Shown here: positions 4,357 to 22,307 of the stretch, one piece after another
Position numbering within the stretch: position 1 is the first letter of the stretch
Layout: each line of letters opens with the position of its first letter
Source of the DNA: Vulcanimicrobiota bacterium
GTDB lineage: Bacteria; Eremiobacterota; Eremiobacteria; Baltobacterales; Baltobacteraceae
Assembly: GCA_030042755.1 (NCBI GenBank)
Contig: JASHZC010000025.1
Span: 1 to 25,642, forward strand
Length of the DNA stretch: 25,642 bases
Direction of reading: 5' to 3'
Translations under genes and position numbers: made by a program
Notes under the pieces: generated by a model
Database searches by the model: none
The model's input: the letters and a program-made list of their open reading frames with translations, nothing else
What the model was told of the DNA's origin: nothing

Positions 4357-4371
4357 CGTCGCGGAGGCGAC

Positions 4372-5127: not shown

Positions 5128-5200
5128 TCATTCGGTTCTCAGCGATTGGGAGCGCCTCCTTGCGAGAGGATCGCTGCTAGCCGCTGCGAACGCAGTAACC

Positions 5201-5281
5201 ACGGCGATGGAGCACCGCCTCGAACTGCCGCTTTGCGGATGATGGCTCCTATTCGAAGGGAAACGATCGGATGGGATCATC
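5201..5281 (+). promoter_or_regulatory. Fluoride riboswitch (crcB motif) upstream of the Nudix-MutS operon
   Basis: P1 is GGCG (5203-5206) with CGCC (5216-5219), enclosing AUGGAGCAC. P3 is CCGC/GCGG (5228-5231, 5235-5238). It is followed by AUGAUGGCUCCUAUU; GCUCC (5245-5249) pairs with GGAGC (5209-5213) as the pseudoknot. There is no terminator before the ATG at 5282. A possible alternative helix pairs GAUGAU (about 5238-5243) with AUCAUC (5276-5281), covering the weak ribosome site GGGA (5273-5276), which would again make this a translational ON switch. The platform is inferred; the aptamer matches the motif well. It lies divergently back to back with the minus-strand copy. Confidence 0.85.
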
Positions 5282-9060: not shown

Positions 9061-9608
9061 GCGAAACAACGGCATCCGGGGTGAAACGGCGGAATCCATC
9101 GCTCCAAACGCGGTCGGATCCCCCACTGCATCGTACAACGCGAGCACGCCTCGTCATACCCGTGAACTTCGTAGCCGCTCGGCGTGAGATCGCGCGCTAC
9201 GCGATCGGCGTGATCGAGCATGCGTAACCAATGAGCGATGATCTCGATGAGATGCAAATCGACCGCGAGTTCCTGCGGCCCGGCAATCTCGCTCAGCGAA
9301 CCGGCTCGCATTCGCGTGATTCGCATGTCGAGCGGTAGCGATCGCCATGTTGCACTCGGCCACGCTCCGGACGGACCAAACGCAAAGTCCCAAAGGTGCG
9401 GCCGTTCTCCCGTAGCCTCTACGTACGAGCGAAACTCGCGCAGCGGAGGAAACCACAGATCGCCTCCTAGTAGCGCAGCGCCGACGTCTTGCTTTGCAAA
9501 CGGTCGTGCGACGCTTCGTCGCACAAACGCGCGAAGGTTACGATCGGTGGGGACGATCAGCTTCAGCGCGTCGTGCAAACGGCTAGTCGAATGCAGCCAC
9601 AATTGCAT
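9030..9608 (-). CDS. Protein of unknown function with CxxC and HPxCRC motif
   Basis: A 192-residue protein of no family I can name with confidence. The frame is open further upstream within the dynamin-like gene; I chose the ATG at 9608-9606 because the earlier part is read in the dynamin frame and the protein-like composition starts at MQLWLHSTSRL. The C-terminal third has CSRC, then PPFHPGCRCF near the end. This PPFHPxCRC pattern is typical of phage minor-head / SPP1 gp7-type domains and of some toxin-like domains, where it probably binds a metal. No other phage genes are nearby, so the resemblance may be shared metal-site chemistry. It overlaps the dynamin-like gene's 3' end by 26 bases and is therefore the third gene of that fluoride-riboswitch transcript. 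The ribosome site is weak. Confidence 0.6.
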   Translation of the reverse strand: MQLWLHSTSRLHDALKLIVPTDRNLRAFVRRSVARPFAKQDVGAALLGGDLWFPPLREFRSYVEATGERPHLWDFAFGPSGAWPSATWRSLPLDMRITRMRAGSLSEIAGPQELAVDLHLIEIIAHWLRMLDHADRVARDLTPSGYEVHGYDEACSRCTMQWGIRPRLERWIPPFHPGCRCFAQPRFAKTRP

Positions 9609-11214
9609 CGAGGATTCGTTCGTCGCGCTCGATTTCTCGAACGCGCAACCCAGCTTTGGTCTCGTCGCTGCTGTCGCTCGCATCCGCAAATGCGTCCTCG
9701 ACGAGTTTTCGCGCACCTGCGAGACGATCCCGGACGAGGCCGACGTTGGCCAGTCGCCATTCCAGCAAATAGCGCACGGCAGCCGAACGAATGCGGCCCT
9801 TCGATCGATCGAGCAATTCTATTGCGAGCGCATGAAATCGCTTGCGCAACGCTCGGGAGCGCAGCGGACCTGGAAGCGTTGCAAGAATGCCGCCGGTTAC
9901 GAGTTCCAGTCCCGTTGTGGGAACGGGCCCGCTCATGCGCGTCGCAGCTTCGCGCGCGCCGAATTCTTGTCGGTCGTCGTCGCTCGTTTCATCCCATTCC
10001 AGCCCCAATGCCTTGTTGCCGGCCTCCACAAAGCGCCGCTCCAATTCCGTCAGTAGCCGAAGCATCGAACGCTTGCGTTTGTCGATGCGGCGCTCCAGGC
10101 ACGAGGAGACTTGCGCCGACCACTCTCCCTCGTGCTGGGCAATGCGCGCGTGCAGTTCGCGCTCGCCTTGCGCTGGGCCACGAGCGACGAATCCTTCGAT
10201 CTCTCCGCGCATGACGGGCGCCGCCTGTTCGACGAGCGTGTCCAGTAACGCGTCGATCGAGACGAGCTCCTCTGAGGGAAACTGCTCGATCGCGCGGATG
10301 AGGTCGGCGCCGCGCTCGTCGATTTCGTCGGCAAGTTCTGCGAATACCGCGCGGGCGCGGTTACGCTTTTCTACCGGAAGCAGCGCGGCCGCTCGCCGAA
10401 GCTCCATGCTGCTGCGGATGCGAGACGCGAGGCGCTGCACGCGACGCGCACGCGATCGCCGCGCAAGCATTCGTCCGTTTTCGGTAACCGCTTGCGTAAT
10501 TGCCTCGCGTAAAGCGTCGACGCGCTCGTCAGGGAGCGTTCCGTTGACGGCGTGAAGCGGAACGTCGTGATGCAACGCGTCGCTCACCACGCTCCGCGTG
10601 AACGCGAGAACCTCCGGCTCTGCATCCGGCACGACGTCGATCTTCGCAACGACGACGATCACGCGATCTGCCAGGCCTTGCACTTCTCGTAGGAAGGTAA
10701 GTTCTTCGCTGGTGATCGGAGGCTCCGGGCCGGTGACGAAAAGAGCTAGATCGACGCGCTCGCTGGCTTCTTGCGCCGTTCGCGTATTGTGCGTCAGCGT
10801 CGAGCCGATACCGGGGGTGTCGATCAGCAGCATGTCATGAAGCAATGGAAGAGGGAGCGCAACGTCGACGTACGCAACGCCGAGTCTATTTCTCGGATTG
10901 CGCTCTTCCGTAACGTATGTCGAGATATCGGAGAGGTCCGCTGCGACCTCACGGCCGTCGTGATAATGAACGGTCAACGACGCGGTCTTTCCGTAACGGA
11001 TCCGCGTCGTCACACCCGTAAGCGGAAGACGTCCCGTCGGGAGCACGTTCTCGGCGAGAAGCGCATTGAGAAGCGTACTCTTTCCTCGCTTGAACTGACC
11101 GAGCACGGCAACGCTAGCGGTTTCGCCGACCGCCTGTTCGGTAACGAATGCAGCGTCTTGCTGCAGCAATGCGTCGCCGTAGATCCGAGCCAGCGCGGCG
11201 AGGTCGTCGCTCAT
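9583..11214 (-). CDS. Dynamin-like GTPase
   Basis: A 543-residue protein with an N-terminal large GTPase domain of the bacterial dynamin type. The G1 P-loop is GQFKRGKST (residues 39-47), G2 threonines are at TGVTT (66-70), G3 is DTPG (132-135), and G4 reads VVVAKID rather than NKxD. The rest is long, mostly helical and arginine/glutamate-rich, like dynamin stalks; there is a short hydrophobic, glycine-containing patch about 400-430 residues in (VTGGILATLPGPL) that could be the membrane paddle. Bacterial dynamins remodel or protect membranes and often come as pairs. Here the partner may be the unknown protein encoded upstream, whose stop overlaps this start as ATGA (11211-11214). It is controlled by the fluoride riboswitch before that gene. 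Confidence 0.88.
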   Translation of the reverse strand: MSDDLAALARIYGDALLQQDAAFVTEQAVGETASVAVLGQFKRGKSTLLNALLAENVLPTGRLPLTGVTTRIRYGKTASLTVHYHDGREVAADLSDISTYVTEERNPRNRLGVAYVDVALPLPLLHDMLLIDTPGIGSTLTHNTRTAQEASERVDLALFVTGPEPPITSEELTFLREVQGLADRVIVVVAKIDVVPDAEPEVLAFTRSVVSDALHHDVPLHAVNGTLPDERVDALREAITQAVTENGRMLARRSRARRVQRLASRIRSSMELRRAAALLPVEKRNRARAVFAELADEIDERGADLIRAIEQFPSEELVSIDALLDTLVEQAAPVMRGEIEGFVARGPAQGERELHARIAQHEGEWSAQVSSCLERRIDKRKRSMLRLLTELERRFVEAGNKALGLEWDETSDDDRQEFGAREAATRMSGPVPTTGLELVTGGILATLPGPLRSRALRKRFHALAIELLDRSKGRIRSAAVRYLLEWRLANVGLVRDRLAGARKLVEDAFADASDSSDETKAGLRVREIERDERILDAIVAAFD

Positions 11215-11822
11215 GCCAAGCTCCAGAAGGCAAGATCGAGCCGCGTCTTGATGATTCCCATCCGCTGCGATCCCGACGTAAGCACACGATCGAGAGCGAC
11301 GTCGATTCGCGCGACGAGTTCACGACGGACGCTTACGTGCAGGGTTTCGGTCCAAACCGCGATGTCGGAGTTGTTCTCCGGAGGCGCGGGCAGCGCACCA
11401 TCGTCGAACTCGAGGTGCACGATCGCAAACATCCGCGGTAAGGGATGTTTGGTCCGAATCGGATGCAGAGCCACCAGGTCCGAAGCGATTCCGGCCTCGG
11501 CGATACCAAGAAGGTTCGTGTACTCTCTGAAGCGGGCGCGTATACGCAGGTCGGCATTGGCGAAAACGCTCTGTGCGCACGTCGAAGCGATGCGCTCGAA
11601 TGCTTCGCGCCACAACGATCTTGCTAGATCTGCATCGAGAATAGAGCCGAAACCGCCGGCAAACTCCAGCGCCTCGCGCCGGGCTCGGTCGAGTGGCCGC
11701 GAGAGGAATCGTTCGATGTTGGCAGCGTCATCGGCGCAGCCGGCGACGAGCTGCGCGCGCGCGGTCCACTCTGCAGTGCGCAGACGCGCGAAAAGGGTTT
11801 CGACCTGGGCCATGTGCGACAT
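11211..11822 (-). CDS. Unknown protein, first gene behind a fluoride riboswitch
   Basis: A 203-residue soluble, mainly helical protein. No family is recognised. Features seen are an N-terminal helical half, a loop PIRTKHPLPRM, a short beta-like stretch MFAIVHLEFDDGALP, and a C-terminal helical segment. The start is the ATG at 11822-11820: AGGAG, ten bases upstream, is the 3' arm of the riboswitch terminator. A TTG six bases upstream and an ATG nine bases downstream are alternatives with poorer spacing. It overlaps the dynamin-like GTPase gene by ATGA, so the two are translated together and probably interact; it could be the regulator or membrane adaptor of that GTPase. This is a guess from position only. 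Confidence 0.75.
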   Translation of the reverse strand: MSHMAQVETLFARLRTAEWTARAQLVAGCADDAANIERFLSRPLDRARREALEFAGGFGSILDADLARSLWREAFERIASTCAQSVFANADLRIRARFREYTNLLGIAEAGIASDLVALHPIRTKHPLPRMFAIVHLEFDDGALPAPPENNSDIAVWTETLHVSVRRELVARIDVALDRVLTSGSQRMGIIKTRLDLAFWSLA

Positions 11823-11826
11823 TAAC

Positions 11827-11862
11827 AAAAAACTCCTGACCGCTTCGAGCGCTCGTCAGGAG
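11827..11862 (-). terminator. Riboswitch-controlled rho-independent terminator
   Basis: On the minus strand, CUCCUGAC (11862-11855) and GUCAGGAG (11840-11833) form a perfect 8-bp stem, with a loop that itself contains GAGCGCUC. Six U residues follow (11832-11827). The 5' arm shares GCUCC with the fluoride aptamer pseudoknot, so the two folds exclude each other. The 3' arm contains the AGGAG used as ribosome site for the gene starting at 11822. Confidence 0.9.
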
Positions 11863-11909
11863 CCATCAGCCATGTTCTCGGCGTTCCACGGGGAGCTCCA
11901 TCCCCACTC
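11827..11909 (-). promoter_or_regulatory. Fluoride riboswitch (crcB motif), transcriptional ON switch
   Basis: Read on the minus strand. P1 is GGGG (11905-11902) with CCCC (11893-11890), around AUGGAGCU. Next come AACGCC and a short P3, GCC/GGC (11882-11880 with 11871-11869), and then UGAUGGCUCCUGAC. GCUCC (11863-11859) pairs with GGAGC (11899-11895) as the pseudoknot. All core elements of the fluoride aptamer are present. Without fluoride the GCUCC strand enters the terminator at 11827-11862; with fluoride the aptamer holds it and transcription continues. The aptamer starts only about 37 bases after the stop of the HAD gene on the same strand, so it may be reached by read-through from that gene. 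UAGAUU at about 11915-11920 is a possible own -10 box. Confidence 0.92.
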
Positions 11910-11945
11910 AATCTACTTCTCAGCCTGAGCGCCACCGCCCTCCGG

Positions 11946-12560
11946 CTACCATCGTGCCGGAGGCCACCGCTCCAGGATGTCGACGAATTTTCGGAACGAT
12001 CGAAATGAACGCTTTCCCGAAAGGAACGATTCGAGTTCGCTCGCGCTCTTTGCGTACACGCTGGTTGCAGCGAGTGCAGCTTCGAAGTCCGAGCGATCGT
12101 CGCCGATCACGATCGCTTTCACTCCTCGTTGGAGCGCTCGTTCGACGTATCCCCGCTTGTCGATCCCGGCCGGACTTTCGTCGCGAAAATGAACGCGCCA
12201 GCCGTTCGTGTCGAACTCGGCGGCATTCCCAATGACCGGTACGTAGACGCCGCGTCGAGCGAGATAGCGTTCGACCAACTCCTCGATGCCCGACGTCAGT
12301 ACCAAAAGTTCGATGCCGGCGTCCTCGCATGCGCGTTGAAAGTCCGGGAACGTTTCATCGAATTTCAGGCCTTCCTCGACGCAACGCTCTGCTTCGTCGC
12401 GATCGAAGCGCACCGCCCGCGCGCGCCGCGCGATTTCGCTGCGATATCCGCGGTCGCTGCCCGATCCGCTTCCAAGCTCCGCATCAGAAACGGCGACGAG
12501 GTAATCCAACATGTCGCGGTCGACGATGGTCCCGTTGAAATCGCAAAGCGCCACGATCAT
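11946..12560 (-). CDS. HAD-superfamily phosphatase-like protein
   Basis: A 204-residue HAD-fold protein, similar in size to MtnX/phosphoserine-phosphatase-type enzymes. Motif I is DFNGT at residues 7-11: the nucleophile Asp7 is present, but the second aspartate, normally the acid/base, is Asn9. Motif II is the serine/threonine of LLVLTSGIEE, motif III the lysine of GIDKRGYVE, and motif IV GDDRSDFEAA. The helical cap lies between residues 15 and 75. The Asn suggests slow or altered phosphate-ester hydrolysis, or another reaction type; the substrate is unknown. The start at 12560 has GAGG eight bases upstream. It lies between two fluoride riboswitches, antisense to the one at 12620 and upstream of the one at 11909, so it may be the first gene of the dynamin transcript. 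Confidence 0.85.
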   Translation of the reverse strand: MIVALCDFNGTIVDRDMLDYLVAVSDAELGSGSGSDRGYRSEIARRARAVRFDRDEAERCVEEGLKFDETFPDFQRACEDAGIELLVLTSGIEELVERYLARRGVYVPVIGNAAEFDTNGWRVHFRDESPAGIDKRGYVERALQRGVKAIVIGDDRSDFEAALAATSVYAKSASELESFLSGKRSFRSFRKFVDILERWPPARW

Positions 12561-12619
12561 CGTGCCAACCTCAGAAGGGATCTCTTCTCCAACGTGCGAA
12601 GGGGCGCCTCAATTAAACC

Positions 12620-12697
12620 ACAAAGCGATGGAGCTCGCTTAATGCCCTGAGGGCTGATGGCTCCTACTCACTACTGCTGAGTATGGGAGCCTTTTTT
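12620..12697 (+). promoter_or_regulatory. Fluoride riboswitch (crcB motif) heading the Ehr-like complex and crcB operon
   Basis: P1 is AGCG (12624-12627) with CGCU (12636-12639), around AUGGAGCU. P3 is GCCC/GGGC (12644-12647, 12651-12654). Then comes UGAUGGCUCCUACUCA, whose GCUCC (12660-12664) pairs with GGAGC (12630-12634). This matches the fluoride aptamer consensus closely, including the ending GGCUGAUGGCUCCUAC. The platform is the terminator at 12659-12697, making it a transcriptional ON switch. The same operon ends in the fluoride channel gene crcB. The AATTAA at 12611-12616 is the only -10-like element upstream; I see no clear -35. Confidence 0.95.
12659..12697 (+). terminator. Riboswitch-controlled rho-independent terminator
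   Basis: GGCUCC (12659-12664) plus ACUCA (12666-12670) pair with UGAGU (12678-12682) and GGAGCC (12686-12691), with a small internal loop. Six U residues follow at 12692-12697. The 5' arm is the aptamer's pseudoknot strand. The 3' arm holds GGGAG (12685-12689), eight bases before the GTG at 12698, so read-through also exposes the ribosome site. Confidence 0.9.
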
Positions 12698-13648
12698 GTG
12701 GTAACGCCGTTCGCGCTCAACGCGGCTCAGGTCGCCTTCGTTCTGCTGCTTTCTCCGCTTTTTGCCGGCATTCTGTCAAAGAGCAAAGAACTCGTCCAGT
12801 CCAAGCGCGGCCCCAGCATCTTCCAGCCGTATCGCGATTTGCGCAAGCTGTTCGGCAAAAACGAGCGCGTGCCCGACGAGAGCAGCTGGATCTTTCGTGC
12901 CGCGCCCTATTTTGTATTTATCGTTCCGCTCGTCGTAACGTTGCTCATTCCGGTCCTAACGAATTTCCCGCTCTTTTTTGCCTTCGCCGGCGACATGTTG
13001 GCGGCGGGTTTCATCTTCGCGATCTCGGGCATGTTTTTCACGCTGGCGGCCATCGATGCCGGGAACCCGTACGGCGCGATGGGAGCCAGCCGCACGCGCA
13101 TGGTCGGCTTCCTTGCCGAACCGGTGATCATCATCGTGCTCTTCACGGTCTCCTTTGTTGCGAACTCGACGATCCCGTACATCGTGCAGCAACACTGGGT
13201 GCACCCCGTTTCCAACTTCTTTGCGCCGTCGCACGTGTTGCTGCTGATCGCGTTCTTCATGGTGCTGCTGGCGGAAACCGGCAGGCTTCCAGTCGACAAC
13301 CCAAGCGGCCACTTCGAGCTTGCGATGATCGACGAATCGAAAGCGCTGGAGTTTTCGGGACCGTCTGCAGCACTTATCAAGTACGGCGGCTACATGAAGT
13401 TCGTGGTGCTGTCCATCGTATTCTTAAACGTGCTCGCGACGCCGTGGGGTCTGGCGGGCAGCGCTTCCGTGCCGGACATCGCACTCGCGATCGTTCTCGT
13501 CGCGATCAAGATCCTCGTTTTGATCGCGGCGATCGTCGCCGTGGAATCATCGTTTTCAAAATTGCGCCTCTTCCGAATCTCTGAATTCCTGGCCGCAGCG
13601 TTCGTCGTATCGGTCACCGCCATGATCACGGAGATGCTGCATCTATGA
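12698..13648 (+). CDS. NuoH/HyfC-like membrane subunit of an Ehr-type complex
   Basis: A 316-residue protein with about eight membrane spans, the HycD/HyfC/NuoH family that anchors the soluble arm of hydrogenase-4 and complex I in the membrane. Typical features are KRGPSIFQPYRDLRKLFGK (about residues 37-55) in the first cytoplasmic loop, DAGNPYGAMGASRTRMVGF in the second, and LAETGRLPVDNPSGHFELAM with conserved Glu and Asp residues in the third. I chose the GTG at 12698 over the ATG at 12683: the ATG is inside the terminator hairpin and has no ribosome site, whereas GTG has GGGAG eight bases upstream, and the N-terminus then matches HycD in length. It is the first gene of the fluoride-riboswitch operon and overlaps the next gene as ATGA. 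Confidence 0.92.
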   Translation: MVTPFALNAAQVAFVLLLSPLFAGILSKSKELVQSKRGPSIFQPYRDLRKLFGKNERVPDESSWIFRAAPYFVFIVPLVVTLLIPVLTNFPLFFAFAGDMLAAGFIFAISGMFFTLAAIDAGNPYGAMGASRTRMVGFLAEPVIIIVLFTVSFVANSTIPYIVQQHWVHPVSNFFAPSHVLLLIAFFMVLLAETGRLPVDNPSGHFELAMIDESKALEFSGPSAALIKYGGYMKFVVLSIVFLNVLATPWGLAGSASVPDIALAIVLVAIKILVLIAAIVAVESSFSKLRLFRISEFLAAAFVVSVTAMITEMLHL

Positions 13649-14310
13649 CGCCGCTGCTGCTCGAGCTCAATGCGCTCGTCCTAGGGCTTTTCATCATCAG
13701 CACTATCGCGATGACCGTGACGCGCCAGATCGGCGCATGCATGCAGGTCTTCATCGTGCAATCTCTGCTGCTAGCGGCGTCGGCATTTCTGCTTGGAGCG
13801 TCCCCATTTTCGTGGCATCTCTTCGCACTTGGATGCGTCACCGTCGCGTCAAAGGCGATCGTCATTCCTTGGTTGTTGCGGGTGCTGGTGCCGCGGGAGG
13901 TTCACTACCAGCGCGAGCTCTCGCAAGCCATTGACGTTCCAACCACGTTACTCATCGCGCTCGGCCTTACGTTCGCCGGATACGCTTTCGCGCAGCGCAT
14001 CGTGCACGTTGCGCCCAACCTCTCGACGGGCAATATCTCGATGGGCGTTGCCGGTTTGCTCGTCGGACTGCTGCTCCTTGCAGTACGCATCGAAGCGGTT
14101 CCGCAGCTCCTCGGCATTCTTGCGATGGAAAACGCCGCCTTTCTGGCAGGCATCGCGATCGCTCCGGATTTCCCCTTGATCGCCGAACTGGCGATCGCGT
14201 TCGACGTGCCGCTTCTGACCTTCATCGTCGCGCTACTCACGCGGATCGCGTATCAAAGCATGGGAACGACCGAAGTTGGTGCGCTCGCATCGCTGAGGGA
14301 ACGCTCGTGA
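13645..14310 (+). CDS. HyfE-like membrane subunit of the Ehr-type complex
   Basis: A 221-residue protein with six to seven hydrophobic segments. HyfE of E. coli hydrogenase-4 has the same size, and the N-terminal span is related to NuoK-type subunits. Recognisable features are QIGACMQVFIVQSLLLAASA near the N-terminus, a charged cytoplasmic loop VLVPREVHYQRELSQAIDVP (about residues 81-100), and ILAMENAAFLAGIA with the membrane glutamate conserved in the HyfE/NuoK family. It belongs to the membrane arm, probably on the path of ion movement. Both ends overlap neighbours (ATGA at 13645, GTGA at 14307), so it is translated together with them. The family call rests on length, topology, these motifs and position. 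Confidence 0.85.
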   Translation: MTPLLLELNALVLGLFIISTIAMTVTRQIGACMQVFIVQSLLLAASAFLLGASPFSWHLFALGCVTVASKAIVIPWLLRVLVPREVHYQRELSQAIDVPTTLLIALGLTFAGYAFAQRIVHVAPNLSTGNISMGVAGLLVGLLLLAVRIEAVPQLLGILAMENAAFLAGIAIAPDFPLIAELAIAFDVPLLTFIVALLTRIAYQSMGTTEVGALASLRERS

Positions 14311-15740
14311 CGATGCTCGCTATTCCACTGGCCGCGCTGACCGGGGCGCTTTGGTGCGCGCTACCTCGGAGTGGGCGGATCGCACCCGCGATTACGTTCG
14401 CAGCGTCGCTTATTGCGTTCGCCCTTTCATTGCACGTCGCATGGACACTGCGACTGGGCGGCACGCTGACGCTCGCACCTGGCTGGGTGGAGGTCGATGC
14501 ACTCGGGGCCTTCCTGTTGGCGTTGATTGCGTTTGTGTACCTGACCGCCGCGCTCTATTCGTGGGGATACCTCGATGTCGGGGAGCACGCGCAGGGTCGT
14601 ATACGCCTCTATCACGCGAATTTTAACCTGTTCGCATTCTCGATGCTAAGTATTCCACTGCTCAGCGAGCTCGGCTTGGTCTGGATCTTCGTCGAGCTAA
14701 CGACGTTGCTCTCGGTCTTGCTCGTCAGTTACGCACTTACGCCTCAAGCGGTAGAGGCTGCGTGGAAATACATGGTGCTGACGTTACTCGGAGCTACCAT
14801 TGCGGTGCTCGGCATTCTCGTCTTGTTCTGGGCGTTGCACACCGCTGGGAGCACCGACTTTACCTGGAACGGCCTTCGCGCCGCCGCGTCGCACATGCCG
14901 CGCGCGTTATTGGGGACCGCCTTCGTGCTGCTGCTCGTCGGCTACGGAGCAAAGATCGGGTTAGTTCCGCTGCATTCTTGGTTGCCGGACGCGCACAGCC
15001 AGGCGCCCTCACCGGTCTGTGCGATGCTCTCGGGAATCGAAACGAGCGCAGTGCTATACGTGTTGCTGCGCCTCCGGAGCGTGTTCACAGTCGACACCTC
15101 GCTGCACGTCGGAACGTGGTTTGCGATTGCCGGCCTGGTCTCGGTCGGCGTCGCGGCGCTCCTCATCGTACAAGCTCACGACTACAAGCGACTCTTTGCG
15201 TTCTCAACCGTCGAACATATGGGCATCATACTTGCGGCTGCGAGCATCCTCACGCCGTTCGGCGACATCGCGACGCTGTGGCAGATGCTCGCTCACGCGG
15301 TGACCAAGTCATTCTGTTTCTATGCCGCGGGAATCGTCCTCGTTGTGACGGGATCGCGCGATATCTCCGACGTACGGGGCTTGCTAGGCATAAGCCGGGT
15401 TGCCAGCTCGGCGCTTCTCTTTGCTTGCCTCGCGATCGGCGGTGCTCCGCCGATGGCTGTCTTCCCGAGTGAACTCGCAATCCTGCGCGCAGCATTGCTC
15501 GCTCACGGGTATGTCATCGCCGCCCTTCTCGCCCTGTTTATCGTGATCGCCTTCTTCGGAATGCTTTGGCACGCCAACTCGATGCTCGCGGGAACTCCGA
15601 GCATGAAGATACGGCAACGCATCCCGGCGGCGTGCGCGCTCGCACTTAGTTTGGCAGCGGTCCCCGTTTTCGTTTTTGGCATATGGCTGCCGCCAAGCGT
15701 ATCTCAGGCTCTTGAGAGCGCTGCGAAGGTGCTCGGATGA
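14307..15740 (+). CDS. HyfF-like antiporter-type membrane subunit
   Basis: A 477-residue protein of about 13-14 spans, of the proton-conducting (Mrp/NuoN/HyfF) family. It shows the family's membrane charges: a glutamate in WIFVELTTLLSVLL (about residue 130), the lysine in GYGAKIGLVPLHSWLPDAH (near 215), SPVCAMLSGIETSAVLYVLL after it, and KRLFAFSTVEHMGIIL near 300. HAVTKSFCFYAAG is also typical of HyfF-type subunits. These residues line ion pathways in complex I-like enzymes, so coupling of redox or conformational energy to proton or sodium movement is expected. It starts with GTG, overlapping the HyfE-like stop, and overlaps the large-subunit start as ATGA. Confidence 0.92.
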   Translation: MTMLAIPLAALTGALWCALPRSGRIAPAITFAASLIAFALSLHVAWTLRLGGTLTLAPGWVEVDALGAFLLALIAFVYLTAALYSWGYLDVGEHAQGRIRLYHANFNLFAFSMLSIPLLSELGLVWIFVELTTLLSVLLVSYALTPQAVEAAWKYMVLTLLGATIAVLGILVLFWALHTAGSTDFTWNGLRAAASHMPRALLGTAFVLLLVGYGAKIGLVPLHSWLPDAHSQAPSPVCAMLSGIETSAVLYVLLRLRSVFTVDTSLHVGTWFAIAGLVSVGVAALLIVQAHDYKRLFAFSTVEHMGIILAAASILTPFGDIATLWQMLAHAVTKSFCFYAAGIVLVVTGSRDISDVRGLLGISRVASSALLFACLAIGGAPPMAVFPSELAILRAALLAHGYVIAALLALFIVIAFFGMLWHANSMLAGTPSMKIRQRIPAACALALSLAAVPVFVFGIWLPPSVSQALESAAKVLG

Positions 15741-17239
15741 TCGCCATTTTTGACGATTTCGTCGAGACGCTCCGCTCGATTTGGCCCGCGCTTGAATGGC
15801 ACGCGGGGAACGGATCGATTTTCGCGCAACTCGAGCCGCGGTTTCTGCGCGCGGTCGTGACCGTTTTCCGCGCGCAGGAGTGGCGAATAGGAACGATCGT
15901 CGCGCGGGAAGACGGGGATCTCGAGGTACGCTATTTTCTCTACGCCTCCCGGCATCCCGGATGGGCGGAGCTGCGCGTGCGCGTGAATCCATCGGAGAGA
16001 ACGCTTCCGAGTCTTACCGGTGTGACCATCGCCGCGGATTGGTTCGAGCGCGAAATCGAAGATTTGTACTCGATTCACTTTCTCGATCATCCGCGATTGG
16101 GAGATTTCGTCATTCACGATGCAGCGCGGACCGACTGGCATCCCAAGCGCGTTCTGGAAGAAGAAGGCGCGTTCATGATGACGGTCGGGCCCGTGTACTC
16201 CGGCGAGGCCGAATCGGCGCTGTTTCTGCTCGAAACCGTTGGCGAAGACGTCGTTCGCTCGGTTCCGCGGTTGTTCTTCAAGTATCGGGCGATCGAAACG
16301 ATCGCGCAAGGGCGCAACGTGTCCGATGTGCTCTTACTCGCCGAGCGCTGCAACGGAACTTCGGCGATCGGTAACGGCTTGGCTTTCTGTCACGCCGTGG
16401 AACGCGCGCTCGGTCTGCACGTGCCCGATCGCGCATCGGCGTTGCGCGCATACTTTGCCGAACTGGAACGACTACGTCATCACATGACGTCGATTCGTGA
16501 GATCTGCGCCTCGACGTCGCTGACCGTTGCCGCCAGCCAGGCGCTTTGGTTGGAGGAGCAACTGCTTCGGATTAGCGGTGAACTCGCCGGGCATCGCTAT
16601 CTATTCGGTGTGCTTGCAATCGGCGGATTACTACGCGATTACGGCACCGATGCGCTGCGCGCATCCCTCACGGCGACCGATGCACTTCTGAAGGTCGTTG
16701 AGTCGTTGCGCGCAGCGCTCGAAAATACGAGCAGCTTTCTCGACCGTATCGAACAGATCGGCATCGTCTCGCAGGATGCAGCGCGCACGTTCGATGTCGT
16801 AGGACCTTTTGCGAGGGCGAGCGGAGTCGCGGCCGATATGCGTATCGTCCAACCGTACGGCGCGTATCCGACCCTCCGATTCGATGTGCCGACGGAGAGC
16901 GAAGGCGACGGATACGCCCGTTTGCGCGTACTCTTCTCGGAGATGACGCAGTCCGCGAGCATCATGCGCACGTTGCTCGACGAGCTTCCCGATGGTCCGG
17001 TTATCGCGGGCGTTCCGAAGGGGGAAGGAAGCGGCATCGGATGGAGCGAGGCGCCACGCGGCGCGTCGGTGCAGTGGGTCGAAGTCGATAAAGACGGAAC
17101 CGTCGCGCGTTACCGGCTCACGCCGCCGTCATTTCGAAACTGGCACGCATTTCACGTCGCAACGGAAGATTTCGCATTCCAGGATTTTCCAATCGTGCTT
17201 GCGACGCTCGACCTTTCCGTTGCGGAGAACGACCGATGA
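15737..17239 (+). CDS. NuoC-NuoD/HycE-like large subunit lacking all Ni-Fe cysteines
   Basis: A 500-residue fusion, as in HycE/HyfG. Residues 1-145 are a NuoC-like 30-kDa domain (DWFEREIEDLYSIHFLDHPR), and residues 160-500 are a NuoD/hydrogenase large-subunit domain (RLFFKYRAIETIAQGRNVSD, LERLRHHM). In Ni-Fe hydrogenases the metal is held by RxCGxC and DPCxxC. Here the first site reads LAERCNGTSA, with Asn206 and Ser209 at the cysteine positions. The C-terminal one reads LDLSVAENDR, with Ser494 and Glu497. All four ligands are gone, so hydrogen chemistry is excluded. No C-terminal extension for protease maturation is present. This is the pattern of Ehr complexes and complex I. The real electron acceptor or donor, perhaps a quinone, is unknown. 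Confidence 0.9.
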   Translation: MIAIFDDFVETLRSIWPALEWHAGNGSIFAQLEPRFLRAVVTVFRAQEWRIGTIVAREDGDLEVRYFLYASRHPGWAELRVRVNPSERTLPSLTGVTIAADWFEREIEDLYSIHFLDHPRLGDFVIHDAARTDWHPKRVLEEEGAFMMTVGPVYSGEAESALFLLETVGEDVVRSVPRLFFKYRAIETIAQGRNVSDVLLLAERCNGTSAIGNGLAFCHAVERALGLHVPDRASALRAYFAELERLRHHMTSIREICASTSLTVAASQALWLEEQLLRISGELAGHRYLFGVLAIGGLLRDYGTDALRASLTATDALLKVVESLRAALENTSSFLDRIEQIGIVSQDAARTFDVVGPFARASGVAADMRIVQPYGAYPTLRFDVPTESEGDGYARLRVLFSEMTQSASIMRTLLDELPDGPVIAGVPKGEGSGIGWSEAPRGASVQWVEVDKDGTVARYRLTPPSFRNWHAFHVATEDFAFQDFPIVLATLDLSVAENDR

Positions 17240-17958
17240 ACAACTGGTTTGTGCGCGGCGTGCTTGCCGGAGTTCGCACCGAGTCGCCGCCGGCCGGCGA
17301 CGACGTCTCGAGCGCGCTCTCGCCCGGATTGCCGAAGACGACACAGCTCGCTTCGGATGAGGAGGCACGAGCGCTGAGCGACGTCTGTCCGGCCGGCGCC
17401 ATCGAGGCAACGTCTTCGGTCGCTCGGATCGACGAGGATCGGTGCGTGCTGTGCATGCGCTGCTCCGCAAACGGCGCGCTGGAATGGCGGCGTGACGTAG
17501 CGTGGGCTCATGCCACATCGGCCGAGCTCGCGCCGCTAGATTCGCGTTTCGTCCGTTCGCTGCACGTGCGTGTCGTGGACGCCGGCGATTGCGGATCGTG
17601 CCTCAACGAAATCGCGCAGATGAATGGCCCGTCATACAACCTCCACCGGTTTGGAATCTTCATCACACCGACGCCGCGCCAGGCGGACGTGCTTCTCGTT
17701 GTGGGGCCGGTGACGAACCAAATGCGCGAGGCGCTGAAGACGGCGTACGACGCAATGCCCGAGCCCAAGCGCGTCGTCGCCGTCGGTGTCTGCGCCGCGA
17801 GCGGCGGAATCTTCGGCCCGTCGTTCATGTCGTCAGGCGGCGTTTCAGACGTTATTCCGGTCGATGTCGTGGTTCCGGGGTGCCCGCCGCCGCCGCACGC
17901 GATCGTCGATGCCCTTCGGTTTGTTTGCGGGCAATCGCCGCGTAAGGAGCGGACATGA
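17236..17958 (+). CDS. Ferredoxin-NuoB/HyfI-like small subunit fusion
   Basis: A 240-residue fusion. Residues 45-90 hold a one-cluster ferredoxin domain: Cys70, Cys73 and Cys76 (DRCVLCMRC) with Cys51 (VCPAGAIE) can bind a single [4Fe-4S]; the second cluster of HyfH/NuoI ferredoxins is missing. Residues 108-235 are the NuoB/HyfI small-subunit domain, with Cys119 and Cys122 (GDCGSC), Cys186 (GVCAASGG) and Cys216 (VVPGCPPPP), the four ligands of the proximal cluster next to the large subunit. So the electron relay survives although the Ni-Fe site does not. In E. coli the two parts are separate proteins (HyfH and HyfI). ATGA overlaps on both sides tie its synthesis to the neighbours. Confidence 0.9.
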   Translation: MNNWFVRGVLAGVRTESPPAGDDVSSALSPGLPKTTQLASDEEARALSDVCPAGAIEATSSVARIDEDRCVLCMRCSANGALEWRRDVAWAHATSAELAPLDSRFVRSLHVRVVDAGDCGSCLNEIAQMNGPSYNLHRFGIFITPTPRQADVLLVVGPVTNQMREALKTAYDAMPEPKRVVAVGVCAASGGIFGPSFMSSGGVSDVIPVDVVVPGCPPPPHAIVDALRFVCGQSPRKERT

Positions 17959-20090
17959 CGGCGCTGCCGCTCTCGCTCACGCTCATTGCCGTCGCGCTCT
18001 GCGCAATCGGCGCATGCGTTGCGTTGGTGCTCGACGAGCGCTTTTCCCCGGGCATTCTCGCAGCGACGTGCTGCTCGGCCGCGGCTCTCGCGTTCGTGGG
18101 TGGAGCGATCTGCCTTGCAGCGGGGCCGAGCGGCGACGTTGCGCTCTGGACGTTCCCGGTACTCGGTTCGATCTACATCGGTACGACAACGATCGCAGCC
18201 TGGTTCGAATGCGTTGCGGCCCTCGTGTACGTTCCAACGTCGCTCTTTACGCTTCGCTACCTCGATCGCTACGCGCGCGAATATTCTCTGCGCGGTTTTA
18301 CCACGTGGTATTGCATATTGCTCGGCGCAATCGTGGGGCTTTTCGTCTGTCGCGACGTCATATCGTTCTTCATCGTGTGGGAGGTCATTGCGATTGCAAG
18401 CGCACTGCTCGTCGCCTTTGAATGGCGTCGTGTCGGAAATGCGCGCGCGGCATTCCTGATGCTCGGCATGAGCGAAGCGGGTACCGTGGCGGCGCTCGTC
18501 GCTTTGCTGATCGCACGTGGCGGTTCTCTTGCTTTTGGAGCCCCATCTCCCGCGCTGAGTGCGCCGCTATCGTGGGTGGTATTTCTACTCGCGTTCTTCG
18601 GGTTCGGAGTGAAGGCCGGGATTCTCCCGATAAATTCGTGGCTGCCTCGCGCGCATCCAGTTGCACCGGGCAATATCTCGGCATTGCTCTCAGGCGTTAT
18701 CTTGAATGTCGGCGTCTACGGCATCGTGCTCGTCGAGATGGTGCTCGCGCCGTCGCGCATCGCCGCACAGGGACTCGTCGTGATGGTCGTGGGAGCCGCA
18801 TCTGCGCTCGTCGGTATCCTCTACGCGACGATTGCGGATGACATCAAAACGATGCTCGCATATAGCTCGATCGAGAACGTCGGTATCGTGCTCACGGCGC
18901 TTGGGGCGAGCTTTGTGTTCGCCTCGGAACATCTTCCGCTCTTTGCCGGCATCGGCTTCGCTGCGGGAATGTATCACCTTGCGAATCACTCTTCGTACAA
19001 AGGGCTCCTATTTCTCGGAGCCGCGACGGTCGATTCCAAACTGGGCACGCGCTCGATGGATGCGCTCGGCGGCGTCATCCGCGTGCTTCCGATAACGACC
19101 GCGCTGTTCTTCGTCGGCGTCTTTTCGATTGCGGCCATCCCGCCGCTCAACGGGTTCGTCAGTGAGTGGATGACGTTTCAAGCGTTACTCCGCAGCGCCG
19201 CGCTAAGTTCGCTCACGTATCGCGCAATCTTTGCGCTTTGCGGCGCGACGCTCGCCCTCACGGCCGCACTTACCGTAACCTGCTTCGTGAAGGCTTTCGG
19301 TATGACGTTTCTCGGACTGCAACGTTCGCCGAGGCCGCGACCTTCAGAGGCATCGCGAAGCATGCTCGCGGGTATGGGGCTGCTCGCGTTGGAATGCCTG
19401 GCGTTGGGCCTGCTTCCGACGTACGTACTTCCGCTCATCGGAAGCGCGTCACGCTCGGCGTTCGGTGTGGACACGGTCACCGGAACGCTCGTACCGCCGT
19501 TTTTCCATCCCGACGCACCTCCGGCGCCGTTGCCCGCCGATTTCGTCGCTACATTTCACGCGCTTGGCGCGCAGATCGGACAATGGCTGCCCGGAAGGGG
19601 CCTGGTCGTAATGCTGCGCGGCGCGTCGGCGAACCCGGTCGTCTTCGCGATGTCGACGACGTATCTGTGCGCGATCGTCGTCGTGCTGCTTCTTGCGACC
19701 TACGGCGTCGTTCGCTTCCTAACGCGATCGCGCCGGGTCGTGCGCTCGAAAGTATGGGCGGGCGGCATTACCTCACTCTCTGCGGAAATGACGTACACCG
19801 CAACCGGATTTTCGAATCCCGTCCGAGTCATCTTCGATGCGATCTTCGACCCGACCGAAGTCGAGAACAGCCGCGAAACGATTCACCAGCATTTCCGCGC
19901 CGCAATTCGTCGCGCGCGTGAGGATGTGTTCGTCGCCGATCGCCTCCTGAGCGACCCGTTGGCCAAAGTCGTTCGCAACGCGGCGAATCTCCTCGCAAGG
20001 ATCCACCATGGGAGACTTTCTGCGTACGTCGGATACGCGCTCGGAACGCTGTTGGCTGCGCTGACGATCGTCTGGTGGACCCAGCGATGA
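17955..20090 (+). CDS. HyfB-like antiporter-type membrane subunit
   Basis: A 711-residue protein with about 16 membrane spans and a soluble C-terminal segment, the size of HyfB/HycC. Family features are FFIVWEVIAIASALLV (membrane glutamate, about residue 143), GFGVKAGILPINSWLPRAHP (membrane lysine and following proline, near 220-240), GNISALLSGVILNVGVYGIV, and MLAYSSIENVGIVLTALG. In the C-terminal part GGITSLSAEMTYTATGFSNP precedes the last long helix and span, as in HyfB. It should be the distal ion-pumping unit of the membrane arm. Gene order here (NuoH-, HyfE-, HyfF-, large, small, HyfB-like) differs from E. coli hyf, where hyfB comes first. It starts as ATGA on the small-subunit stop and ends as ATGA on the Nudix start. 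Confidence 0.93.
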   Translation: MTALPLSLTLIAVALCAIGACVALVLDERFSPGILAATCCSAAALAFVGGAICLAAGPSGDVALWTFPVLGSIYIGTTTIAAWFECVAALVYVPTSLFTLRYLDRYAREYSLRGFTTWYCILLGAIVGLFVCRDVISFFIVWEVIAIASALLVAFEWRRVGNARAAFLMLGMSEAGTVAALVALLIARGGSLAFGAPSPALSAPLSWVVFLLAFFGFGVKAGILPINSWLPRAHPVAPGNISALLSGVILNVGVYGIVLVEMVLAPSRIAAQGLVVMVVGAASALVGILYATIADDIKTMLAYSSIENVGIVLTALGASFVFASEHLPLFAGIGFAAGMYHLANHSSYKGLLFLGAATVDSKLGTRSMDALGGVIRVLPITTALFFVGVFSIAAIPPLNGFVSEWMTFQALLRSAALSSLTYRAIFALCGATLALTAALTVTCFVKAFGMTFLGLQRSPRPRPSEASRSMLAGMGLLALECLALGLLPTYVLPLIGSASRSAFGVDTVTGTLVPPFFHPDAPPAPLPADFVATFHALGAQIGQWLPGRGLVVMLRGASANPVVFAMSTTYLCAIVVVLLLATYGVVRFLTRSRRVVRSKVWAGGITSLSAEMTYTATGFSNPVRVIFDAIFDPTEVENSRETIHQHFRAAIRRAREDVFVADRLLSDPLAKVVRNAANLLARIHHGRLSAYVGYALGTLLAALTIVWWTQR

Positions 20091-20518
20091 GCGTTGCCTC
20101 GATCTACCGCATTCGCGTGCGTGCGGCCATACGGAGGCCGCCGGATGAGGTGTTGGTCGCCATCGAATCGCAAGACGGGCGGGCGTCGATCCGTTTGCCC
20201 GGTGGAGTGCCGCGAACGGGCGAGACGCTGGAATCGGCGCTGATTCGTTCCGTACGCGAAGAGACGGGCTACGAGACCATCCCGACCGACATTGCGTTTG
20301 TGACCGAACGCGGAAGGCGCGATGAGAAGGAGCGGGCTCTCGACGTCGTTTTTTATGCAGAGATCGTTGTCGGCAATCCGAGCGCTCCGCCGAGAGGTGC
20401 CGCGTCGGCGAACCTGACGTGGCTCGGGTACGACGATCCACGCCTAATACGATTCGTTCCGGAAGCGAAGGACTTCACGGCTAGCCGCAAAGGACGATAC
20501 AATCGGTCAGATGCCTGA
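20087..20518 (+). CDS. Nudix hydrolase, fluoride-operon copy 2
   Basis: A 143-residue Nudix-fold protein paralogous to the one at 5282. The Nudix box, about residues 41-63, reads GVPRTGETLESALIRSVREE then TGY: the final EE pair and the first glutamate are kept, but the glutamate after the arginine (RE in REUxEE) is serine. Activity may be weaker or directed to another substrate. I start at the ATG at 20087, which overlaps the HyfB-like stop as ATGA; an ATG twelve bases upstream lies inside that gene and is less likely. It sits between the membrane complex and DUF190-crcB in one transcript. The presence of a Nudix gene in both fluoride-controlled operons suggests a shared substrate problem under fluoride, but which one is unknown. 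Confidence 0.88.
   Translation: MSVASIYRIRVRAAIRRPPDEVLVAIESQDGRASIRLPGGVPRTGETLESALIRSVREETGYETIPTDIAFVTERGRRDEKERALDVVFYAEIVVGNPSAPPRGAASANLTWLGYDDPRLIRFVPEAKDFTASRKGRYNRSDA
20474..20503 (+). promoter_or_regulatory. Possible internal promoter for DUF190-crcB
   Basis: TTCACG (20474-20479) and TACAAT (20498-20503) are 18 bases apart, inside the end of the Nudix gene. Transcription would start near 20510, next to the DUF190 ATG at 20511, giving a leaderless message. It would supply basal DUF190 and CrcB without passing the riboswitch. Confidence 0.35.
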
Positions 20519-20520
20519 CC
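20505..20520 (+). repeat. Perfect hairpin holding the DUF190 start codon in its loop
   Basis: GGTCAG (20505-20510) and CTGACC (20515-20520) form a perfect 6-bp inverted repeat; the four-base loop is ATGC, the DUF190 start codon plus one base. The nearest ribosome-like AGGA is 16 bases before the ATG in linear distance. It may regulate initiation or couple it to translation of the Nudix gene, or be an operator at the internal promoter. Confidence 0.5.
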
Positions 20521-20852
20521 GAACCACGGGAAAACTTTTACGTATCTTTGTCGACGAGGAGGATCGCTACCAGGGGCAGCCGCTCTACATGGCGATCGTC
20601 GACGCGCTTCGAGCGGCAGGATTCACGGGAGCCACGGTGCTCAAAGGCATCGAGGGCTTCGGGACCCACAACACCGTGCATGCTGCGCGCGTCTTCGACA
20701 TGTCGACGAACCTGCCGATCCTAATCGAAGTGATCGAAGAGGAAGGGAAAGTTCTCGCGTTCATTCCGACCCTTCGCGAGATGATTGCTGAAGGGTTGAT
20801 CACGCTGGAAAATCTCGAACTCATGCGGATCTCGCGAGGCCGCGACGCGTGA
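20511..20852 (+). CDS. DUF190 family (PII-like) protein, copy 2, next to crcB
   Basis: A 113-residue cytoplasmic protein of the DUF190 family, with GKLLRIFVDEEDR, LYMAIVDALRAAGFTGATVL, KGIEGFGTHNTVH and LPILIEVIEEE. It is the typical length for the family, shorter than the copy at 4372. DUF190 and crcB are frequent neighbours across bacteria, so it may modulate the fluoride channel or sense a related signal; no activity is proven. It begins inside the end of the Nudix gene (8-base overlap) and its stop overlaps the crcB start as GTGA. Its start codon lies in the loop of a perfect hairpin (20505-20520). Control comes from the operon's fluoride riboswitch and perhaps from an internal promoter. 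Confidence 0.88.
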   Translation: MPDRTTGKLLRIFVDEEDRYQGQPLYMAIVDALRAAGFTGATVLKGIEGFGTHNTVHAARVFDMSTNLPILIEVIEEEGKVLAFIPTLREMIAEGLITLENLELMRISRGRDA

Positions 20853-21235
20853 TCGACTGGAGAGCTGTGGTCGCTGTCGCAATCGGAGCGGCGATCGGTG
20901 GCGTACTGCGCTACGTCGTCGGTCAGTTCTTCTTGCAGCGATTCGGCGCGGGCTTTCCGTTTGGGACGCTGTTCATCAACGTGACCGGCAGCTTTTGTAT
21001 CGGAGTCATTGCGGAACTCGCCGCAACCCGTGCGCTGGGCATGACGCCGATGCTACGCATGTTTTGGGCCGTCGGTGTGCTAGGCGGCTATACGACGTTC
21101 TCGACGTTCTCGCTCGACGAGCTCACGATGCTCCAGGAAGGGCTCTTTCCTGCCTTCATCTATATGGCTGCGTCGGTGGGCCTCGGCCTTGCCGGTGCAG
21201 CAGCAGGCATCATCCTCGTGCGCCTCGGAAGATAG
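20849..21235 (+). CDS. crcB: CrcB/Fluc fluoride ion channel
   Basis: A 128-residue protein with four membrane spans, the standard size of Fluc channels, which work as antiparallel dimers and let F- leave the cytoplasm passively. Conserved features are GGVLRY (residues 17-22), GTLFINVTGSFCIG (39-52) with Asn44, and GGYTTFSTFS (79-88). Phe84 and Phe87 are the Phe-box residues that line the fluoride pore, and TTFST also holds the central sodium-site region. The start is a GTG overlapping the DUF190 stop (GTGA). It is the last recognised gene of the operon headed by the fluoride riboswitch at 12620, which fixes the physiological signal for the whole set. No terminator is evident directly downstream. 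Confidence 0.96.
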   Translation: MIDWRAVVAVAIGAAIGGVLRYVVGQFFLQRFGAGFPFGTLFINVTGSFCIGVIAELAATRALGMTPMLRMFWAVGVLGGYTTFSTFSLDELTMLQEGLFPAFIYMAASVGLGLAGAAAGIILVRLGR

Positions 21236-21268
21236 CGGTTAATAGATGCCTTCGATGGAGAAAAGGCA

Positions 21269-21448
21269 ATGGTGAAAGATGTTGCCGCCGAGATGATTCG
21301 GGCTTACGGCACTGCACCTGGTCTGCTGATGCGGACGGATTATCGCGTGCAGAAGCTTCGCGAGCTGCGCGATCGGGAAGAGGTCGAGCGCCCGTTTAGA
21401 TATGCTCCCGTCCTGCGGGTATCTCGAGGTACTGTAACGGTCCGATAG
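21269..21448 (+). CDS. Possible small protein downstream of crcB
   Basis: A 59-codon reading frame starting ATG at 21269, with GGAG (21257-21260) eight bases upstream, ending TAG at 21446-21448. The first 40 residues (such as DVAAEMIRAYGTAPGLLM and YRVQKLRELRDREEVE) look like one or two amphipathic helices, a protein-like composition; the rest overlaps the end of the opposite-strand reductase gene. It follows crcB by 33 bases and would belong to the same transcript. No family is recognised. It may equally be a chance frame. Confidence 0.4.
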   Translation: MVKDVAAEMIRAYGTAPGLLMRTDYRVQKLRELRDREEVERPFRYAPVLRVSRGTVTVR

Positions 21449-22307
21449 GCACGATGCGCGTCGGATTGATGTCATCGTGCGTGTAGTAATAGTGACGCTT
21501 GATGTGATCGAAATCGACCGTCTGCGCCACGCCCGGATATTGGTAGAGGTCGCGTAAATACCCGTAGAGATTCGGGTAGTCCACGATCCTGCGCAAATTG
21601 CACTTGAAGTGGCCATAATAGACCGGATCGAACCGAATCAACGTTACGAACGTTCGCCAGTCGGTTTCGACCGGTTTCTTTCCGAAGAGAAACCGCGACG
21701 TGGCGAGACGAGATTCCAGGCGATCGAGAAGGGCGAAGACCCGGTATGCGGCCTCCTCGTACGCAGTCTGGCTCGTGGCGAATCCTGCCTGGTAGACGCC
21801 GTCGTTGAGATCGTGAAAGATCTCCTGGTTCAGCACGTCGATTTCGGGCCGAAGTTCGACGGGGTAGAAGTCCGGCACCGGATCGCCGATCGCATTGAAC
21901 TCCGTTTCGAACATTCGCAGGATGTCGTCGTCCGAGTTGCTGACGATGCGTTTTGTTTGCATGTCCCACAGCACCGGTACCGTAACGCGATCGTTGTATA
22001 CCGGGTCGCTCGCTATGTAAAGCTCGCTCAAAAAATGCGTGCCGTAATGCCAGCCGCGTTCGTCGCGTATCGGATCCACGATCGTCATCGGAATCGCAGC
22101 CTCGAGGCGTTTGAGCTTGCGCATGATGATCGTGCGATGCGCCCACGGACATGCGAGCGACACAAAAAGTTGATAACGGCCTGAGACTGCCGGAAATCCT
22201 GTGTGCCCGTCGGCTGAAACCCATCCGCGGAAATGGTCTTCTTGACGGACAAAGCGTCCGTCGTCGCTCTGCTCTTGCGGGAATTGTGCTTTTACGTGCG
22301 TATCCAT
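21396..22307 (-). CDS. Glutathionyl-hydroquinone reductase (Xi/omega-type glutathione S-transferase)
   Basis: A 303-residue glutathione-transferase-fold protein of the Xi class (YqjG/PcpF/ECM4 type). The thioredoxin-like N-terminal part carries SLACPWAHRT with Cys53, the cysteine that attacks the glutathionyl group of quinone conjugates. Family-specific stretches are DPIRDERGWHYG, RVTVPVLWD (the cis-proline), SNSDDDILRMFETEFN (glutathione binding), and RFDPVYYGHFKCN with YPNLYGYLRDLYQYPG in the C-terminal helical domain. The expected reaction is reduction of glutathionyl-hydroquinones using glutathione in the cytoplasm. The frame is open upstream to 22580, but that part overlaps the cytochrome gene; I chose the ATG at 22307-22305. 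It converges on the crcB operon and diverges from the cytochrome gene. Confidence 0.92.
   Translation of the reverse strand: MDTHVKAQFPQEQSDDGRFVRQEDHFRGWVSADGHTGFPAVSGRYQLFVSLACPWAHRTIIMRKLKRLEAAIPMTIVDPIRDERGWHYGTHFLSELYIASDPVYNDRVTVPVLWDMQTKRIVSNSDDDILRMFETEFNAIGDPVPDFYPVELRPEIDVLNQEIFHDLNDGVYQAGFATSQTAYEEAAYRVFALLDRLESRLATSRFLFGKKPVETDWRTFVTLIRFDPVYYGHFKCNLRRIVDYPNLYGYLRDLYQYPGVAQTVDFDHIKRHYYYTHDDINPTRIVPIGPLQYLEIPAGREHI

Follow-up and report, generated by a model that had tools for sequence, protein, structure and literature searches.

Why should a fluoride riboswitch stand in front of genes that look like those of a formate hydrogenlyase? The question is raised by a stretch of 25,642 nucleotides (nt) from a Vulcanimicrobiota bacterium (GCA_030042755.1, contig JASHZC010000025.1, positions 1 to 25,642; hereafter the window), in which one such riboswitch is followed by the genes of a six-subunit, hydrogenase-4-like membrane complex of the Ehr type. 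Two puzzles meet here, namely the riboswitches before 'formate hydrogenlyase' genes, noted in 2010, and the role of Ehr complexes. According to Weinberg et al. (2010; PMC2864571), the genes that stand behind crcB-motif RNAs include mutS, genes for the transport of K+ or Cl- and those of formate hydrogen lyase; in the metabolic acclimation section of a 2024 review (PMC11139923), formate hydrogen lyase is listed as one of the enzymes most often controlled by fluoride riboswitches. The function of Ehr is described in parts of two papers as untested or unknown (PMC6349859, PMC10284858). Fluoride and crcB terms were not found in the accessible text of two Ehr papers (PMC6688271, PMC10284858), and no paper joining Ehr with fluoride or crcB was found in the literature searched, most subscription papers lying outside the search. 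We consider the identity of the complex and its control by fluoride to be very well supported by sequence; all of this evidence bears out an earlier note on the window, which had proposed an Ehr-type complex under fluoride control.

The riboswitch lies at 12615-12673 on the + strand (RF01734, 40.0 bits, E = 5.3e-8, gathering score 34; 54.9 bits with our covariance model R1, to whose training set the site belonged). An intrinsic terminator at about 12659-12697 (+) forms the expression platform, as indicated by the sequence, the fold and a complement test with 0 mismatches. Its 5' arm, GGCTCC, is the aptamer's own pseudoknot strand, and a run TTTTTT comes after the 3' arm, GGAGCC; this predicted overlap of aptamer and terminator fits the layout of an ON switch.

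Nine open reading frames (ORFs) follow on the + strand up to 21235, with neighbours overlapping by 4-16 nt. According to Pfam and NCBIfam they encode, in this order, the NuoH/HyfC-like subunit C (12698-13648; PF00146; HycD 7z0s_D, E = 3e-39), the HyfE-like subunit E (13645-14310; its sole basis being the NCBIfam hydrogenase 4 membrane subunit at 1.3e-12, below the cut-off), the HyfF-like, antiporter-type subunit F (14307-15740; PF00361), the NuoCD/HycE/HyfG-like large subunit L without [NiFe] cysteines (15737-17239; PF00329 and PF00346), the small subunit I with a ferredoxin-type domain and a NuoB/HycG/HyfI-like part (17236-17958; C51/C70/C73/C76 and C119/C122/C186/C216), the HyfB-like, antiporter-type subunit B, in which Asn251 replaces the usual lysine (17955-20090; PF00361), a Nudix hydrolase (20075-20518; PF00293, 1.3e-11), a P-II-like DUF190 protein (20511-20852; PF02641, 4.9e-35; PF00543, 2.1e-5) and the CrcB/Fluc fluoride channel (20849-21235; PF02537, 6.4e-25; TIGR00494, 81.6 bits with a cut-off of 80.45). 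The succession of a riboswitch and nine gapless, overlapping genes given in the earlier note was thus recovered with RF01734, the ORFs and the family assignments. We moved the start of the first gene from ATG 12683, the first ATG of the ORF, which falls within the terminator hairpin, to GTG 12698; this is the likelier start because the resulting 316 aa match the median for 72 ORFs of homologues. A terminator scan of 12600-21450 returned 14 terminator-like sites on both strands, which is near the shuffled mean of 11.6, so the scan gives no sign of an internal stop. The scan did not report the terminator of the riboswitch itself, probably owing to its limits on loops and bulges.

Conservation of the riboswitch link

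Homologues of the large subunit are numerous (2494 at E ≤ 1e-3 among 7998 scored). When genomes of bacteria and archaea were scanned with alignment A1, 177 relatives were obtained, of which the best 80 (L001-L080) together with the window form a set of 81 loci, selected for closeness to the window and referred to here as Ehr-1. Two of these loci have identical large subunits (L069, L071) and two lie in the same genome (L033, L064). According to NCBI record titles, the 80 loci represent 15 named phyla, with 11 loci having no phylum. The subunit order C-E-F-L-I-B was found by ORF clustering in all loci where the genes were called.

In 70 of the 81 loci (window included), a subunit C start was called with at least 100 nt of upstream DNA. 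A riboswitch precedes the operon in 68 of these 70 loci, within 400 nt in 60. The sites were searched with R1, which was trained on 11 riboswitch sites from the 81-locus set and used at E ≤ 0.01, and with RF01734, which serves as an independent check because R1 was built from the same set; both replaced a regular-expression search that had produced many misses and false sites. With R1, a same-strand riboswitch was located within 400 nt of the subunit C start in 55 loci, four slightly overlapping the called start, and farther upstream in seven, with a crcB, DUF190 or dynamin gene intervening. Five operon riboswitches missed by R1 were found with RF01734: those of L012, L014, L065 and L070, near subunit C, all score over the gathering threshold, and that of L042 scores just under it (33.9 bits) and lies within an over-long called ORF, its place having been mapped from the contig. 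At L043, the riboswitch is 3.2 kb upstream and has a dynamin gene behind it. No riboswitch was found by either model in front of the operon of L011, nor in the 161 nt of upstream DNA of L075. The earlier note had named a lack of this gene order in related genomes as an outcome that would count against it; both order and riboswitch are conserved. At the genome level, RF01734 reports a hit at E ≤ 1e-3 in 38/40 and 40/40 locus genomes, or 77/79 distinct genomes (one being in both lists), and in 4/14 named control genomes. The terminator complement test could parse 24 of the 68 riboswitches and was positive for five (window, L004, L064, L067, L072; shuffle mean 0.73), and we therefore claim transcriptional control for the window alone.

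The link appears to be specific to the fluoride clade. At 55 loci that encode other Ehr complexes, complex I or group-4 hydrogenases, R1 found no riboswitch, and RF01734 at its gathering score likewise found none at 23 of them, used as control loci. Within 32 genomes of the set, matches of the fluoride clade have at least 50% identity and other long matches at most 35% (some short, partial ones 38-39%). Among twenty regions with such other long matches, R1 riboswitches occur solely at L081 and L082, which belong to a sister subfamily, Ehr-2; five of twenty further regions (L110-L113, L116), with homologues classified as others by the small subunit alone, have no R1 riboswitch.

Ehr-2 comprises 13 loci (L081, L082, L101-L109, L114, L115), with a large subunit that is about 33% identical to that of Ehr-1 and the same gene order, subunit E being undetected in L081 and L103. 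A riboswitch lies in front of the operon at 10 of the 12 loci with upstream DNA (L109 has none); that of L108 is weak (R1 E = 0.0085; not found by RF01734 at gathering), L114 has a divergent riboswitch only and L115 none. In the large-subunit tree, Ehr-1 (80 rows) forms a group with a Shimodaira-Hasegawa-like approximate likelihood ratio test (SH-aLRT) value of 100, to which Ehr-2 is not joined; in the tree of subunit C both subfamilies are joined (SH-aLRT 99). Both trees were made by a quick method and have long branches. One candidate for Ehr-2, L037_2209p, was rejected for its long branch and a C-terminus without Glu497, and was excluded from later counts.

Samples from single phyla point in the same direction. 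The window's phylum holds 32 further homologues, namely 20 with all four [NiFe] cysteines, two probably so (shifted alignment), four other Ehr and six NuoD-like proteins, and no R1 riboswitch lies near any of them in stretches of 6.5-10 kb, some of which perhaps fall short of the operon start (R1 misses 5/68 known sites). Among 148 genomes of this phylum, a riboswitch is present in 13/13 Ehr-1 genomes vs 49/135 others (Fisher 5.4e-6), and in 22/22 genomes with Ehr-1 or Ehr-2 vs 40/126 others (3.6e-10), both tests ignoring kinship. The Ehr-2 members of this sample come from 13 genomes among the matches listed at E ≤ 1e-40 and were classified singly, except for a contig-end fragment in G017. In 118 Nitrospirota genomes, the fluoride clade occurs in two, each time behind a riboswitch, and none of the other homologues among about 150 matches listed lies less than 10 kb from a riboswitch, as judged by eye under strict riboswitch filters. 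A plasmid search gave 246 records, all below 60% identity, with 34% as the highest value in the 40 listed; these were rejected as members of the fluoride clade, their identity being only at the level of relatives.

The 'formate hydrogenlyase' linked to fluoride riboswitches at these loci is a distinct Ehr clade, sharply bounded, testable and with one inducer. It shares with the known fluoride regulon RF01734 and the neighbours mutS, 'formate hydrogen lyase' and enolase, as far as these are named in the cited passages, but the 'formate hydrogenlyase' at our loci is this separate clade.

Redox centres and channel residues

The large subunit lacks the metal site of hydrogenases. The residues aligned to the four [NiFe] cysteines of HycE are N, S, S and E in the window (positions 206, 209, 494 and 497), and a full set of four cysteines is absent from all 80 Ehr-1 loci that could be resolved (one locus is unresolved; four have one or two). 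The 'cysteine-less large subunit' of the earlier note is therefore confirmed as far as the [NiFe] ligands are concerned, and the label hydrogenase or formate hydrogenlyase is very probably wrong for these loci, although many homologues are annotated at source as 'formate hydrogenlyase subunit 5'. Position 497 is Glu in 80/80 Ehr-1 and 13/13 Ehr-2 loci and Gly in other Ehr. We rejected Glu497 as a mark of the fluoride clade, since six of six NuoD-like homologues share it; by alignment, this residue is a trait of complex-I-like proteins and is missing from other Ehr. The motif GPLHPG of the quinone site (7q5y_B) reads GPVYSG in the window, so that the GPxHP pattern of complex I is missing, and its His, which we take to act at the quinone site, is kept among Ehr-1 loci solely in L059 and L079. 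An AlphaFold2 model of the large subunit (predicted template modelling score 0.86, residues 121-179 unreliable) has 7z0s_E as its best fold match and adds a predicted confirmation of the fold only.

In the small subunit, the ferredoxin-type cluster is kept: all four cysteines occur in 76/81 Ehr-1 loci (two are unresolved, two partly so and one reads CCAC) and in 13/13 Ehr-2 loci. The ligands of the N2 cluster, assigned by alignment inference, are CCCC in the window, and positions 119, 122 and 186 are Cys in 81/81 Ehr-1 loci. The fourth ligand, 216, is kept in those small subunits of other Ehr, hydrogenases and complex I that were readable, except at L088. This locus, a non-fluoride Ehr with three of four N2 cysteines lost, has no riboswitch in its fetched region and contains a group II intron match at 9669-9739.

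The membrane subunits retain the charged residues that we assume, from complex I, to be central to the proton channels: E143 (67/69), K220 (69/69) and E404 (69/69) in subunit B, and E130 (55/60), K216 (60/60) and E389 (60/60) in subunit F, which also gains a nearby Glu (49/60) or Lys (11/60).

Fluoride-Ehr thus resembles other Ehr complexes in its subunit make-up, its large subunit without [NiFe] cysteines and its antiporter-type subunits. It differs from them in its riboswitch, in its gene order (most other Ehr loci mapped begin with B and read B-C-E-F-L-I; L088 begins with I), in an Asn for the channel Lys of B, in Glu rather than Gly at the fourth [NiFe] position and in an N2 ligand set that is relaxed or lost. 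The formate hydrogenlyase/hydrogenase-4 complex of E. coli (7z0s) is the best-scoring solved homologue of L, B and C, but fluoride-Ehr lacks the [NiFe] ligands, and formate dehydrogenase is absent from the annotated recurrent neighbour clusters. With complex I it shares the NuoCD/NuoB/NuoH fold, the antiporter-type subunits and, as in NuoD-like proteins, Glu497; unlike complex I, it has no NADH-dehydrogenase module (NuoEFG) in the operon or among the annotated recurrent clusters, and its quinone motif is altered.

Possible roles of the complex

The reading we favour, though tentatively, is that of a fluoride-induced ion-translocating complex that would offset the burden of protons and charge brought by fluoride and would be redox-driven in Ehr-1. 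Fluoride would bind the riboswitch and block the overlapping terminator, upon which the six-subunit complex would be made. Uncharged HF presumably enters the cell and splits inside into H+ and F-, and the exit of F- as a charge would dissipate the membrane potential. By exporting H+ or swapping it for another cation, the complex could restore cytoplasmic pH and potential while fluoride would be inhibiting ATP-dependent and glycolytic enzymes. The likeliest drive in Ehr-1 would be electron flow that starts at a low-potential donor, passes through the cluster of the ferredoxin type and a modified cluster of the N2 type and ends at an acceptor; in Ehr-2, this electron path looks broken.

Several observations weigh against this reading. 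N2 ligand 216 is Cys in only 35/81 Ehr-1 loci and otherwise N (24), H (7), Q, D, A, S, G, F or T, and no more than one N2 cysteine is left at any of the 13 Ehr-2 loci, both of which weaken a redox drive of the complex I type. The channel Lys position of subunit B is Asn in 68/69 Ehr-1 loci and in the two B subunits of Ehr-2 that were compared, while 14 of 16 B-like homologues from outside Ehr-2 have the Lys (one Glu, one gap); pumping may therefore be altered. No gene for an electron donor or acceptor was seen among the annotated recurrent neighbour clusters. In addition, CrcB, the channel that such a pump would serve, was not found in 23 of the 50 Ehr genomes searched (out of 79), which are metagenome assemblies of uncertain completeness.

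The earlier note had also tied the complex to crcB, and this part is not supported in the form given there. The survey it suggested shows that the riboswitch and the altered large subunit occur together and that crcB is inconstant: CrcB is present in 18/81 fetched loci (L012 and L014 being doubtful, with short ORFs and no support from Pfam CRCB in those genomes), in 27/50 Ehr genomes vs 10/14 control genomes and, within the window's phylum, in 2/13 Ehr-1 genomes vs 71/135 others (Fisher p = 0.017) and 5/13 Ehr-2 genomes vs 68/135 others (p = 0.56). The genome with the closest Ehr-1 found in the phylum sample (G293) gave no CrcB match, although its operon keeps DUF190. Non-detection in metagenome assemblies is weak evidence, which incompleteness and kinship could explain. 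A motif search for CLC proteins of the fluoride type, as stand-ins for CrcB, gave this type in 3/30 fetched loci and the chloride type in 0/30, which says little either way. Since crcB is frequently not found with Ehr, upkeep of the gradient on which Fluc depends can explain at most part of the role of the complex.

The decay of N2 speaks for a redox-independent cation/H+ antiporter like Mrp, which would exchange Na+ or K+ for H+ and so defend the pH, with the hydrophilic arm vestigial or kept as a regulatory gate. Ehr-2 has lost three or four of the four N2 cysteines at all 13 loci and retained its membrane subunits and mostly the riboswitch; the fourth ligand is not Cys in 46/81 Ehr-1 loci, antiporter-type residues are retained, and Na+/H+ antiporters are common fluoride-riboswitch genes according to the relevant part of the 2024 review (PMC11139923). 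The three invariant N2 cysteines and the nearly invariant ferredoxin-type set of Ehr-1 are nevertheless hard to explain without electron transfer, and we regard such an antiporter as unlikely on balance, if worth serious consideration. The ferredoxin-type cysteines, conserved in both subfamilies, would suit an electron sink in which carriers of the ferredoxin kind are re-oxidised while enolase and carbon flow are blocked by fluoride, ion pumping being secondary, and enolase is encoded at 12/81 loci. Yet Ehr-2 lacks N2, an acceptor site is not recognisable and the membrane subunits show strong constraint on their charged residues, which makes this proposal improbable.

A direct fluoride extruder, in which the former [NiFe]/quinone pocket would bind F- or HF and proton flow in the membrane arm would expel it, could explain both the decay of the redox centres and the fact that the complex goes with the riboswitch and not with crcB. 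The nearly universal fluoride control, the lower frequency of CrcB in Ehr-1 genomes of the phylum sample, its non-detection in 23/50 Ehr genomes and the channel changes confined to the two fluoride subfamilies agree with it. However, no anion path across such a complex is known, the changed channel positions lose Lys and mostly gain Glu, which is unfavourable to an anion, and missing CrcB can be accounted for by incomplete assemblies and kinship. The pocket is not unique either, as Glu497 is shared with complex-I-like NuoD, and this lowered our estimate a little further; we consider an extruder quite improbable. The name used by Weinberg et al. and in the 2024 review, like the source annotations, would imply a true formate hydrogenlyase or hydrogenase for a fermentative shift. 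Without the four [NiFe] cysteines at any resolved locus, with four-Cys homologues of the same phylum (20/32 regions) lacking the riboswitch and with formate dehydrogenase missing from those recurrent neighbour clusters that were annotated, fluoride-Ehr is most unlikely to be such an enzyme, and the shift to fermentation in that section of the review does not fit the loci examined. Under the ion-translocation reading, fluoride defence in many phyla may include an unrecognised kind of ion pump. The loci also present machines of the complex I type in which redox centres are lost and the membrane arm is kept, and these bear on the ways in which electron transfer and ion movement can be uncoupled.

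Neighbouring genes and the fluoride island

Counted over the fetched stretches of the 81 loci, many of which are short, the recurrent neighbours are dynamin-like GTPase (24), DUF190 (22), MFS (13), metallophosphoesterase (13), enolase (12), MutS_V (8) and Nudix (8), and at least one of six marker families occurs in 28/36 loci of at least 19 kb. Enolase, CrcB, phosphoesterases and Nudix fit fluoride and its targets; enolase is already in print as a fluoride-riboswitch neighbour in a passage of the 2024 review (PMC11139923).

The part of the window from about 4.3 to 21.2 kb can be read as a fluoride island, and it contains two further riboswitches. The second, divergent one (11850-11914, - strand; RF01734, 35.4 bits) precedes a gene of no named family (11211-11828, -) and a dynamin-like GTPase (9583-11214, -; PF00350). 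A HAD-type hydrolase (11946-12560, -; PF12710) lies between the two divergent riboswitches, downstream of neither. The third (5194-5258, +; RF01734, 46.8 bits) stands before a Nudix gene (5282-5722, +; PF00293, 1.7e-14) and two MutS-domain-V-type genes (6020-7564 and 7561-9060, +), assigned by cluster, with PF00488 on cluster members in L044. At 4330-4749 lies another DUF190 gene, P-II-like by Pfam (PF00543, 5.8e-4).

Dynamin-like GTPases were seen directly behind a riboswitch in L006, L030, L041 and L043; in the literature searched, again with most subscription papers outside it, no paper joining fluoride riboswitch and dynamin was found. DUF190 and crcB occur together in the fetched stretch of 16/81 loci. 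P-II controls AmtB, and by analogy DUF190 could gate the CrcB channel, or act on Ehr where crcB is absent. The tandem MutS-domain-V pair found behind the third riboswitch of the window also lies beside several Ehr-2 operons. Two further families of the island, at 5614-6033 and 9030-9716 (-), recur, among the loci seen, only in islands of Vulcanimicrobiota.

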